From Caldilineaceae bacterium (GTDB taxonomy: Bacteria; Chloroflexota; Anaerolineae; Caldilineales; Caldilineaceae), in contig JAJEBF010000056.1 of assembly GCA_022824025.1 (NCBI GenBank), forward strand, positions 1 to 64,000: DNA of 64,000 nt. The letters are read 5' to 3'. A model generated the notes under the pieces. It searched no databases. It saw only the letters and a program-made list of their open reading frames with translations, and was not told the origin of the DNA. Of the stretch, positions 5,249 through 45,758 are shown in pieces (within the stretch, counting starts at the first letter, position 1; each line of letters opens with the position of its first letter). The translations under genes and the position numbers were made by a program.

Positions 5249-6268
5249 TCATTCTACCGCCGTCTCGATCTGCGCCTCCCGGTCCGCCTGCTTCCGGGCC
5301 CTGTTGAAATCACTCCAACGCAGCTGCACGCGCCAGAAATAGTAGGCCCCCAGCGCGGTCACCGGCGCCCACAGCGCCGCGTGAAGCGTCAGCGTATAGC
5401 TGGCCGCCAGCTGGGGATCGATCCCGTAGGCGGCCAGCGTCTCGATCGCCGGCGTATCGAATGTGCCGATGTACCCGGGCGCCGACGGCAGTGTTGTCGC
5501 CAGATTGACGAGGCCGTTGATTAACATCAACGCCAGAAAGCTGACACTGAAGGCAAATGCGTGCATGACAAACCAATACTTGACCGTCTCCATCAACCAC
5601 ACCACGATACTCGTGGCAAAGATCAGGATCAGGTCGCGGCCGCTGCGCAGGCTGCCCAGCCCCTCCATAAAGCGGTCAAAGAGGCCGTCCGTCCGTTCGC
5701 GGATTCGGTCCGGCAGCAGGTTTTCCGCCAGCCAGCCATAGAGGGCGGCGATCCGCCGCGGCCGCACCGTCATCCAAATGAAGAGCGCGGTGACGACCAG
5801 CAGCAGGAAGGTCACAAAGACGACAAACTGCTGGAAGGCCGCCGGGATCGGCGCAAAGGGCAGCGCCAGGAACACGAACAGCAGCATCACCAGCCCGTCG
5901 AAGACACGCTCGATGATCACCGTCGCCAGGCTGGAGCTGATCGGGATTTCTTCCCGCTGCCACAACACGTAAGCCCGCATCACCTCCCCGGCGCGAAAGG
6001 GATAAACATTGTTGCCGAAATAACCGATGCACACCACTGGAAAGAGCCTGCTCAGCGAGACCGGTTTCAGATGCCGCAGCATATAGTGCCAGCGCCACGT
6101 GCGCGCCCACAGCCCCACCATGTAGACCGCCACGCCGGGCGCAATCCACCAGTAGTTGGCCTGCCCCATCGCCCGCCACACTTCCGGCAGATGCAGCCCC
6201 GGCAAAATCAGATAAAGAAAAAAGAGGCTGATCAGAAGCCCGATCAGCAGCTGCGCCGCACGTTTCAT
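5249..6268 (-). CDS. Lysylphosphatidylglycerol synthase TM-region / UPF0104-like flippase family membrane protein
   Basis: This 339-aa polytopic protein has about seven to eight hydrophobic segments. It contains the family motif NNVYPFRAGEVMRAY near residue 90 and the SAPGYIGTFD-type segment near residue 280, characteristic of the membrane domain found in MprF and in stand-alone AglD-like proteins (COG0392). Family members move or modify glycolipids and phospholipids at the membrane; the stand-alone form lacks the aminoacyl-transferase domain, so lysine transfer is not implied. It is first in a minus-strand run with the M16 peptidase, recF and alaX. The GC-rich 6269-6394 stretch upstream shows no clear promoter. 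Confidence 0.82.
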   Translation of the reverse strand: MKRAAQLLIGLLISLFFLYLILPGLHLPEVWRAMGQANYWWIAPGVAVYMVGLWARTWRWHYMLRHLKPVSLSRLFPVVCIGYFGNNVYPFRAGEVMRAYVLWQREEIPISSSLATVIIERVFDGLVMLLFVFLALPFAPIPAAFQQFVVFVTFLLLVVTALFIWMTVRPRRIAALYGWLAENLLPDRIRERTDGLFDRFMEGLGSLRSGRDLILIFATSIVVWLMETVKYWFVMHAFAFSVSFLALMLINGLVNLATTLPSAPGYIGTFDTPAIETLAAYGIDPQLAASYTLTLHAALWAPVTALGAYYFWRVQLRWSDFNRARKQADREAQIETAVE

Positions 6269-6394
6269 CCATCCCTCTTGTCACTGCCTATCCCGCTATT
6301 ATTCCACAGGTCCCGCGCCCGCTGAAATCCGCCCCCGATCCCGCGTCATGCCCCGATGCCCCCGCCGCCGGCCGCCGCAGCTCAACTGACCGGC

Positions 6395-6427
6395 AAAAAA
6401 AGTGCCAGGCCAACCGGCCTGGCACTT
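6395..6427 (-). terminator. Intrinsic terminator of the SWIM gene
   Basis: A perfect 12-bp inverted repeat (AAGTGCCAGGCC, 4-base loop) lies at 6400-6427. On the minus strand it is followed by a run of seven T residues (complement of 6395-6401). It sits 33 bases after the stop of the small SWIM-domain gene, so that gene is transcribed separately from the flippase/recF run. Confidence 0.85.
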
Positions 6428-6460
6428 GAGCAGTAAACTATCTGGACCTTCTTGTCTGCG

Positions 6461-6712
6461 CTATCCCGGGATAGGGAGCATCGCAGGCTCAACTGCCTCA
6501 CCGAGAATCTCTTCCATCGCCATTACATGGGCACATATGCTTCTGCGCTGAAACTCCTCGCAATCACAATCCCAGGCACCCTGATCATAGCAGACGTAGT
6601 GATCAGAGTGCTCGCCTTGGATCTTCACCTTAAAAGTGTTGAACCACAAGCGTTTGTCACGCTCGGCTGCGTACTGGCGGGCTTTGATGATACGGCTGGC
6701 AATCGCGTCCAT
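6461..6712 (-). CDS. Small SWIM-type zinc-finger protein
   Basis: This 83-residue protein is essentially a lone SWIM domain. The zinc motif is CDCEEFQRRSICAH, i.e. C-x-C-x8-C-x-H, preceded by a beta-strand region (WFNTFKVKIQGEHSDHYVCY). SWIM domains bind DNA or protein partners and occur in SWI/SNF helicases, MULE transposases and small stand-alone bacterial proteins; the partner is not known here. The frame is open further upstream, but the ATG at 6712 has a good AGAAAGGAAAACAG ribosome-binding site and fits the domain edge. It has its own terminator downstream and a promoter plus leader hairpin upstream. Confidence 0.75.
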   Translation of the reverse strand: MDAIASRIIKARQYAAERDKRLWFNTFKVKIQGEHSDHYVCYDQGAWDCDCEEFQRRSICAHVMAMEEILGEAVEPAMLPIPG

Positions 6713-6793
6713 TCTGTTTTCCTTTCTCTGGGGTGCTAAGCGCTGAGGAAACGAAACAGTACCGAATACGGACCCCGCATGATGCGCGTGCGT

Positions 6794-6832
6794 AAAAGAC
6801 GAAAACACCCGGGCATAACGCGAGCCCAGGTG
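6794..6832 (-). terminator. Terminator-like hairpin in the SWIM leader
   Basis: On the minus strand CACCTGGGC pairs with GCCCGGGTG across an 9-base loop. One G-U wobble makes the stem fully paired only in the minus-strand RNA. It is followed by TTTTCGTCTTTT. It lies about 80 bases before the SWIM start codon, so it would either end a short RNA or act as an attenuator. Confidence 0.6.
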
Positions 6833-7017
6833 CTTGCAAACAATGTTTCCCAATCGGGTTTCCGGCTACAACAGCAAATATGAAAGGCGTCCACGCTCAT
6901 CCTTGAGGGTCAACTGTGGTTTGACCGGCCCAATGAACGGTCCAACTGACGGACGGATCTGGTCCCTTTTTGTGGATTTGTCCGGAGCCGCTCGTCGTGG
7001 GGGGCACGGCTGTTGAC

Positions 7018-7046
7018 AGTATATGCTCTTGCCGAATGGCTGTCAA
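7018..7046 (-). promoter_or_regulatory. Sigma70-type promoter, minus strand
   Basis: On the minus strand TTGACA (complement of 7041-7046) is followed after exactly 17 bases by TATACT (complement of 7018-7023). The elements sit within a perfect 8-bp inverted repeat, GTTGACAG ... CTGTCAAC (7012-7019 and 7040-7047), which could also be an operator. The predicted transcript starts near 7011 and reads toward the SWIM gene. Confidence 0.65.
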
Positions 7047-7236
7047 CCGGGCAAAGCCACTCCGGAACCGTTCCCCGACAGGGTTATCCCACCAAATCCG
7101 CCGGGATTTACTCTGGTAGGAACCACCGAGACTGCTTGGCCGCGAACCAAAAATGCCGAAACCTACGGGTCAGACAATTCTCCTACGATCCGCCTACGAT
7201 CTGCCTGAAAGGCGGAAATTCCCGGCCGCCTGCACC

Positions 7237-7623
7237 CTATTCCACAAAAATCTCAACCAGCTCCTCTTCATCGCGGACCTCCAGGATCTTCCCATTGAGC
7301 CCGGATCGCAGCGCGTCGCGAATTTCGTCTACGTCCAGTTCAGCTACGTCCGGCACAAACCGCGCCCCCACCGCCAACCCCATGTCGACCAGCCCGATCG
7401 GGAGCGTCAGATTGACCCGCGTCTTGCCGCTCCTTGTATCAGAGACGCGCAGACGCAACCATCGTCCTCTTCCCTCTCCGCCCGCTTCTCCCGACCCCCG
7501 CTGGCGGCGGGCTCGTTCGGGTCTTTGGCCCAGCGTCTCCAGCAGGCGCGCGCCCTCCTGCGCGGAGATCTTTCCTTCTTCGATCATCTTCAAGACCCGC
7601 ATTCGCTCTTCCGCTGTTGCCAT
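7237..7623 (-). CDS. SHOCT-like domain protein (YvlB/LiaX-N type)
   Basis: This 128-residue protein starts with a short helical hairpin, EERMRVLKMIEEGKISAQEGARLLETLG, the SHOCT-like/YvlB N-terminal domain that accompanies envelope-stress proteins. After a Gly/Arg-rich linker comes a predicted alpha/beta domain (LRVSDT, KTRVNLTLPIGLV, GKILEV, LVEIFVE) usual in this family. The ATG at 7623 has an AAGAGG ribosome-binding site 6 bases away; the longer frame to 7656 is less likely. It is the last gene of the minus-strand stress-type operon but lies 208 bases beyond the ABC permease, so it may have its own promoter. The same helical motif occurs at the C-terminus of the 501-aa protein and, more divergent, of the DUF2089 protein. 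Confidence 0.75.
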   Translation of the reverse strand: MATAEERMRVLKMIEEGKISAQEGARLLETLGQRPERARRQRGSGEAGGEGRGRWLRLRVSDTRSGKTRVNLTLPIGLVDMGLAVGARFVPDVAELDVDEIRDALRSGLNGKILEVRDEEELVEIFVE

Positions 7624-7831
7624 ATCAACCTCTTCCCCCAAATCGCAACGACCCAACCTTGGTCACATCCCGGCACTGAACGAGACGGGCGCATCCGCTT
7701 CTCTCTCCGCGCCTCCATCCTCTCCCCCAGAAAGGCGCTTTATGCTACTTTAAGCGGTCGGGCTTTCGGCCCTCCCTTGTGCGGGGGGATTTCCCCCGCA
7801 ACGCCCCCCTGTCCTTCCCCGCAGTTCCCCC

Positions 7832-44567: not shown

Positions 44568-45758
44568 CTACCTGGCATATGGATCGGCGGCGTCGCGAAT
44601 GCCGTCGCCCAGAAAATTGAAGGCCAGTACTGCCAAAACCACCGCCAGACCAGGGGTCAGCACCCACGGCGCAAGCGCCACGGAACGCACATTCTGGGCC
44701 TCCTGCAACAAGACACCCCAACTGATTGCCGGCGCTCGCAGACCCAGACCAATGAAGCTGAGTCCCGTTTCCGACAGAATAATGCCCGGAATCGCCAATG
44801 TCAAGGAAGCGATAATATGGCTCAGGAACGACGGGACCATGTGCCGCAGAATGATTCTCATTTCACTCGAGCCGCTGAACCGGGCCGCCATCACGAAATC
44901 CTCTTCCCGCATGCTCAAGAAGCGCCCGCGCACAACCCGGGCCAAGCCCGTCCACCCCACGAACGATAGCAGAATCGTTACCCCGAAATAGAGCCGGACC
45001 ACCGGCCAGTCGGCGGGGAGGGCCGCTGCAAGCGCCATGATCAGCGGAATCTCCGGGATTGAGCGAATGAACTCGATCAGACGCTGTATGGCGTTGTCGA
45101 GGGCGCCCCCGTAGAAGCCCGAGACGCCGCCAAGCAAAATGCCGATAACCAGACTGAGGACAACACTCACCAATCCAATCGTCAGCGAGATGCGGGCGCC
45201 GTAACACAACCGCGAAAAGAGATCGCGCCCCAGACGGTCCGCCCCTAACAGAAAGACTCCCTGCTCCTCATGCGGCACATCCAACCCGTAAAGGTGCCAC
45301 GAGGAGGCAAACTGCCCCCACAACTCGTACTCGGTCCCCTTCACAAAAAATCGTATCGGATGGATCGTCGATTCGTCCTCAATGTAGATGTTGCGCAGCG
45401 TCTCCGGGTCCCGCTCTCGAATTATCTTGTAGACAAAAGGCCGCCGCAGATTCCCTTCCGCATCAATGATTCGGATATTCATTGGCGGCACAAACTTGTA
45501 CTGCACAAAGGACTGCTCCGGATCATAGGGCGCAACGAATTCGGCGAAGGCGGCTATCCCATACAGTATGACGACCAGAAATCCCGAAAGAACTGCCATC
45601 CGATGCTTCCGAAATCGCCACCACATCAGTTGCGAATATGACGCGACGAAAATGTCCTCATCTTCGATGATTTCCAGATCGAGATTCGCCTCGTCGTCGC
45701 GAAATGCGTCCTCGTCCTCGCCAGACCTTTCGATCCAGGACCGTTGCAGGGTTTCCAT
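44568..45758 (-). CDS. Peptide-type ABC transporter permease (DppC/OppC family), cassette D
   Basis: This 396-aa protein is a close paralog of the cassette C DppC, with the same acidic N-terminus, WWRFRKHRMAVLSG before TM1, and the long extracytoplasmic insert with IRERDPETLRNIY and YGLDVPHEEQGVFLLGADRLGRDLFSR. The core shows VVRGRFLSMREEDFVMAARFSGSSE and ends FNFLGDGIRDAADPYAR. No B-type permease is encoded alongside it; the unpaired B gene is in cassette A (17101-18087). The ATG at 45758 has no strong Shine-Dalgarno (GAATCTCAT upstream). Confidence 0.93.
   Translation of the reverse strand: METLQRSWIERSGEDEDAFRDDEANLDLEIIEDEDIFVASYSQLMWWRFRKHRMAVLSGFLVVILYGIAAFAEFVAPYDPEQSFVQYKFVPPMNIRIIDAEGNLRRPFVYKIIRERDPETLRNIYIEDESTIHPIRFFVKGTEYELWGQFASSWHLYGLDVPHEEQGVFLLGADRLGRDLFSRLCYGARISLTIGLVSVVLSLVIGILLGGVSGFYGGALDNAIQRLIEFIRSIPEIPLIMALAAALPADWPVVRLYFGVTILLSFVGWTGLARVVRGRFLSMREEDFVMAARFSGSSEMRIILRHMVPSFLSHIIASLTLAIPGIILSETGLSFIGLGLRAPAISWGVLLQEAQNVRSVALAPWVLTPGLAVVLAVLAFNFLGDGIRDAADPYAR

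Follow-up and report, generated by a model that had tools for sequence, protein, structure and literature searches.

In Escherichia coli pyrBI, the leader ORF overlaps the attenuator, and the terminator is directly kept from forming by a ribosome whose translation extends up to it or through it; special codons are not involved, and UTP is sensed through polymerase pausing. At tnaC, termination depends on a ribosome located at the stop codon of the leader and is Rho-dependent and tryptophan-specific. For Listeria and Bacillus, the reports on hflXr (leader rli80, PMC6310831) and bmrCD (leader bmrB, PMC4191407) describe a short leader ORF, a premature terminator and translation-dependent read-through, with both systems making use of alternative RNA structures and antibiotic-affected translation; a constitutive short RNA is also described for hflXr and an RLR motif in rli80 (PMC6310831).

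Here, we analysed the leader of a small SWIM zinc-finger gene on a 64-kb stretch of Caldilineaceae DNA (hereafter the window) together with its relatives in Chloroflexota. We conclude, with a probability of roughly two in three, that transcription attenuation takes place in this region and is governed by a ribosome occupying a short leader ORF, and the kind of regulation predicted from the comparison is ribosome-mediated transcription attenuation. pyrBI is the closest system in geometry, although the gene controlled here encodes a zinc-finger protein. As for tnaC, a ribosome at the leader stop is proposed to control termination, whereas the terminator of the SWIM leader is intrinsic and the C-terminal residues of the leader peptides are not conserved. 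With hflXr and bmrCD, the SWIM leader shares the short ORF and the premature terminator and would share the translation-dependent read-through, but it differs from them in having neither an evident antiterminator nor a stalling motif, RLR being found in 0/71 leader peptides.

An initial annotation, made from the sequence of the window, had described a TTGACA-17-TATACT promoter about 300 bases from a small SWIM-finger gene and a hairpin between the two, all of which we recovered (Table 1). The promoter on the minus strand (7046-7018), whose -10 element ends ~305 nt before the SWIM ATG (6712), is the only sigma-70-like site within 6200-7700 on both strands (1 vs. 0.4 expected), and only four sites in the whole window reach 10/12. 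The hairpin at 6835-6803 folds in the minus-strand RNA with 12 pairs, including U-G, and a 9-nt loop, and is followed by TTTTCGTCTTTT (6805-6794); it was missed by a simple terminator scan because loops larger than 8 nt are not listed by that scan. An intrinsic terminator is thus located between promoter and gene, as is general for attenuators. A second terminator begins ~34 nt past the SWIM stop and, as it comes after the gene, the SWIM gene is considered a single-gene transcript. The search for promoter-hairpin pairs on both strands of the window returned only two, the SWIM locus and a TTGACA-17-TATTCT promoter at 44804 (minus strand), 40 nt downstream of which lies a weak terminator-like hairpin. 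The SWIM frame is also open 5' of its ATG through part of the leader (6713-6853, minus strand; 130-aa ORF), which may mislead gene callers.

Table 1 Features of the SWIM locus in the window.
Feature	Position	Strand	Basis
Promoter: -35 TTGACA 7046-7041, 17-nt spacer, -10 TATACT 7023-7018	7018..7046	-	11 of 12
5' hairpin AGCCGU...AGCGGCU with C-rich loop, presumed transcript start, genus only	6986..7011	-	genus alignment
Shine-Dalgarno-like AAGGA of the candidate leader ORF	6900..6904	-	sequence; 5 nt before GTG
Small hairpin GUUGAC-CUCA(AGGA)UGAG-GUGGAC, SD-like AAGGA in and beside the loop	6889..6914	-	genus alignment
Candidate leader ORF, frame 0: GTG start, in-frame ATG 6900, through the terminator, stop TAG 6738-6736	6736..6894	-	
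Alternative candidate ORF, frame 1: peptide VAG... in relatives	6657..6896	-	pair counts of synonymous changes
Intrinsic terminator (attenuator): stem-loop 6835-6803 and T-rich tail to 6794	6794..6835	-	fold, compensatory changes
Shine-Dalgarno region GAGAAAGGA of the SWIM gene	6720..6728	-	sequence
SWIM zinc-finger gene, 83 aa	6461..6712	-	Pfam match, conserved motif, predicted fold (mean pLDDT 90)
Terminator 3' of the SWIM gene	6400..6427	-	12 pairs, T-rich tail

The assignment of the gene product as a SWIM-finger protein was borne out by a match to PF04434 (23.1 bits, cutoff 19.6) and by the CxCx(n)CxH motif, in which C49, C51, C60 and H62 are invariant in 17/17. Structure prediction yielded a confident small alpha-beta model, for which Foldseek returned no PDB match with E <= 0.001; likewise, a search of the PDB with the protein sequence gave no match, and NCBIfam holds no fitting name, so that the SWIM domain is the only named family to which the protein could be assigned. 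Named relatives come from Caldilineaceae and other Anaerolineae. The protein is encoded in 344/396 genomes of the class Anaerolineae (259/285 among those of good quality) and in 161/201 genomes of the phylum Chloroflexota, the class itself being counted in. In loci L279-L308 (genus g126 of family f20) and in genomes G020 and G026, a tandem SWIM duplication is found inside one longer ORF, with two SWIM matches each. A search of one open-access library with the terms used yielded no paper dealing with the leader or with SWIM proteins of Chloroflexi, and the retrieved sections of PMC5552922, PMC6310831, PMC4191407 and PMC12121999 contain no description of the leader.

Within the genus of the window, a DNA match to the leader was obtained in 16/17 genomes, self included, showing the leader to be conserved; the 17th genome is 81% complete and without a SWIM match. 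The alignment of the 16 leaders shows the promoter, the 5' hairpin and the small AAGGA hairpin as well as the terminator and the ribosome site of SWIM, with AGAAAGGAA in the Shine-Dalgarno region of the SWIM gene being nearly invariant. The promoter is aligned in 15/16 leaders, the exception (L013 in genome G004) having an unrelated sequence as its 5' leader half, a retained terminator and gene, and a promoter located 499 nt upstream instead. A search of the window's own genome for further copies of the leader DNA gave the locus itself and only two weak matches (E 0.45 and 0.84). For covariation, the 15 genus leaders of alignment A2 were used. In the terminator stem, 4/12 pairs carry changes on both sides, amounting to nine cells, a number reached in 0/500 shuffles, which argues that the terminator covaries in this genus. 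The 5' hairpin is paired in 92% of cells with 0 pairs changed on both sides, while the small hairpin is paired in 100% of cells with 8/9 pairs invariant and, because its pairs hardly vary, has no proof from covariation. Thus, the covariation anticipated for the proposed stems was found for the terminator and almost not at all for the other hairpins.

The conservation of two small hairpins besides the terminator within the genus could point to a metabolite riboswitch or a protein-binding leader acting on the terminator, for example through SWIM autoregulation. However, the fold of the whole leader is no more stable than that of shuffled sequences (z −0.50 and +0.12), a search of Rfam with the leader gave 0 matches at the gathering threshold and, at E <= 10, only a meaningless one to SNORA74 (E 9.4), and, apart from the terminator, no leader core common to distant genera was seen. 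Given that the conserved hairpins are also almost free of covariation, we regard such a leader as very unlikely, and the idea of an aptamer-like structured leader was dropped on the grounds of the fold and the missing Rfam family. The earlier decision not to call a c-di-GMP-I riboswitch despite a loose resemblance agrees with these results, while the structured leader proposed at the same time does not.

The attenuator reading is strengthened considerably by the comparison across Anaerolineae, in which a locus was counted if a promoter of at least 10/12 starting with TTGAC was followed by a terminator-like hairpin before the SWIM gene. This order was detected in 141/172 unique class loci with enough upstream sequence, compared to 2/1720 shuffled and 1/172 reverse-complemented sequences. 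Among 139 mutually dissimilar loci, 109 have both promoter and terminator (shuffles 7/1390), and the hexamers are almost fixed in these 109, with TTGACA in 75, TTGACT in 28 and TATACT in 97 of them; the remaining 30 loci showed no such combination at the thresholds used. A conserved attenuator consisting of a near-consensus promoter, a leader, a terminator and a small SWIM zinc-finger gene is therefore strongly supported at the level of sequence comparison. Several individual loci depart from this arrangement or add to it. Genus g16 has neither promoter nor leader (L055, L056), and in this Caldilineales lineage (L055, L056, L106-L109) the SWIM gene either lost or never had them; in L067 the promoter immediately precedes the SWIM gene; in L069 (genome G042) the gene that follows promoter and terminator encodes a DUF5661 protein (PF18905, E 5.7e-25), and SWIM is located downstream on the same strand. 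Direct (G)TTAAC repeats ~11 nt apart occur right behind the -10 element of the SWIM promoter in L023, L025, L027, L029, L032 and L053; these repeats of several Caldilineaceae resemble PHO boxes and are possibly a transcription-factor operator on the SWIM promoter.

Promoter and terminator alone predict a terminated RNA of ~200 nt, and the locus could accordingly be read as a gene for a free small RNA or for a micropeptide with an ordinary terminator, unrelated to the SWIM gene; the common peptide starts MRV and MRLF within family f27 would suit the latter. Against this speaks that leader sequence and peptide vary between genera, yet promoter, terminator and SWIM gene stay together. Moreover, the distance from terminator end to SWIM start is at most 45 nt in 45/109 loci, which in many cases leaves no room for another promoter, and a second promoter-like site was seen in just 3/109 loci (shuffled 26/545), from which it follows that in such loci the SWIM gene has to be transcribed from the upstream promoter and through the terminator. 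An unrelated small gene therefore appears highly improbable. For the attenuator, the short terminated RNA would be the product of its off-state, so that the two options left by the initial annotation, a regulated leader or an RNA of about 200 bases, become two outcomes of one device.

Across the class, the most telling feature appears to be a short leader reading frame, which was absent from the initial annotation, as was the class-wide and partly phylum-wide architecture. In 44 of the 109 dissimilar loci, an ORF led by a Shine-Dalgarno (SD) site stops at positions -4 to +6 of the terminator, compared to 6.0 ± 2.6 (maximum 13) in shuffled leaders, and the profile of stop positions over these 109 loci has a sharp peak at the terminator foot. 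A stop at or within the hairpin was found in 58/109 loci vs. 9.3 ± 2.8 upon shuffling. The other 65/109 are without a stop-at-terminator ORF having a good SD site, part of them reading through or having a weak SD; in other lineages, the leader frame continues through the terminator towards the SWIM gene, and in many leaders of family f20, judged by eye, a clear short ORF is missing. The median length of the 71 stop-at-terminator peptides is 12 residues, and each of the three stop codons is found among them. In genus g44, where peptides such as MRLFHGxP and similar ones are preceded by the SD site GAGGTAACGCC, changes are in excess at third codon positions, with 22/17/40 events at positions 1/2/3 of codons 2-7 (p = 0.004) and 40/31/57 when codons 2-9 are counted (p = 0.017). 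The codon differences in the TIPHK block of genus g7 likewise lie mainly at third positions.

A short SD-led ORF abutting or overlapping the terminator is hence found class-wide, while the window's own genus is ambiguous in this respect. In 15/15 aligned genus rows, frame 0 extends into the terminator without a stop, and it draws no support from synonymous changes. Frame 1 stops directly before the terminator in 6/15 genus rows; in the window's own sequence this frame crosses the terminator uninterrupted and has no canonical start before TTG 6839. The late part of frame 1 shows 189 synonymous changes vs. 110 expected, counted over pairs that are non-independent. The event test for coding in this genus was not significant (p = 0.26). 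For the window's genus, frames 0 and 1 thus both stay candidates, and we claim neither. A third candidate, frame 2 from the TTG in GTTGAC..., was rejected for having no SD site and a stop far from the terminator.

Based on these observations, we propose the following mechanism. A strong, constitutive-looking promoter would start RNA synthesis 100-350 nt before the SWIM gene, and by default the polymerase would halt at the intrinsic terminator of the leader, releasing a short RNA. A ribosome translating the leader ORF would either arrive at its stop codon, located at the base of the terminator stem, or, in some lineages (that of the window among them), continue through the terminator. Judged by known ribosome footprints, about ten bases at the start of the stem would lie under a ribosome positioned at the leader stop. 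With the 5' arm of the terminator covered by a ribosome at or past the stop, the hairpin could not form and the polymerase would read into the SWIM gene, whereas with the ribosome absent or late the terminator would form, leaving SWIM off and the short RNA freed. The leader ORF would accordingly be translated, with ribosome occupancy serving as the on-signal, and this occupancy may be changed by the initiation rate, elongation, slow release or antibiotics.

A leader ORF combined with a terminator is also the hallmark of trp-type or antibiotic-type attenuators, in which stalling of a ribosome at special codons permits the formation of an antiterminator hairpin. In g7, the TIPHK codons are closely followed by a GCACC/GGTGC hairpin that is nearly invariant and could indeed compete with the terminator arm, and proline occupies positions 5-9 in 49% of the 71 peptides vs. 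24% in shuffled controls, a difference uncorrected for shared ancestry. Yet leaders pair with the 5' arm of the terminator less than shuffled sequences do (mean z +0.40, s.e.m. 0.06, n = 194), the g7 hairpin being a possible exception, which makes a general antiterminator unlikely; the antiterminator pairing of this type was thus not found. Regulatory codon runs as in trp-type leaders were not found either: the 71 peptides contain no recurrent special codons, no RLR motif and no PP or WW, and runs of three identical residues occur in only 3/71, none of them recurrent. We consequently judge a codon-specific switch of this type to be unlikely, and the low pairing with the 5' arm favours direct occlusion by the ribosome.

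Outside the class, promoter and terminator are present in 17/39 loci (shuffled 2/390). An SD-led ORF stops at or within the hairpin in 7 of these 17, compared to 1.4 expected, with a stop exactly at the terminator foot in only 1/17. Based on these few loci, the architecture is probably older than the class, with a looser geometry outside it. Overall, the SWIM leader looks like an old, previously undescribed switch that would read the state of translation. Tentatively, and with more doubt than confidence, one may go further and picture an attenuator without antiterminator or regulatory codons, whose bare stop-at-terminator-foot geometry reports ribosome occupancy and has guarded the SWIM gene since early Chloroflexota, the SWIM protein then being a phylum-specific translation or translation-stress factor with its supply set by the ribosome itself. 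Knowledge of attenuators stems largely from a small number of model bacteria and concerns mainly amino-acid or antibiotic genes. The one proposed here would control a gene that is widespread in a whole phylum and has no name; its geometry is maintained despite sequence turnover, and the position of a ribosome appears to be all that it needs. With it, an uncharacterised core protein and its regulation become testable in cultured Chloroflexota.
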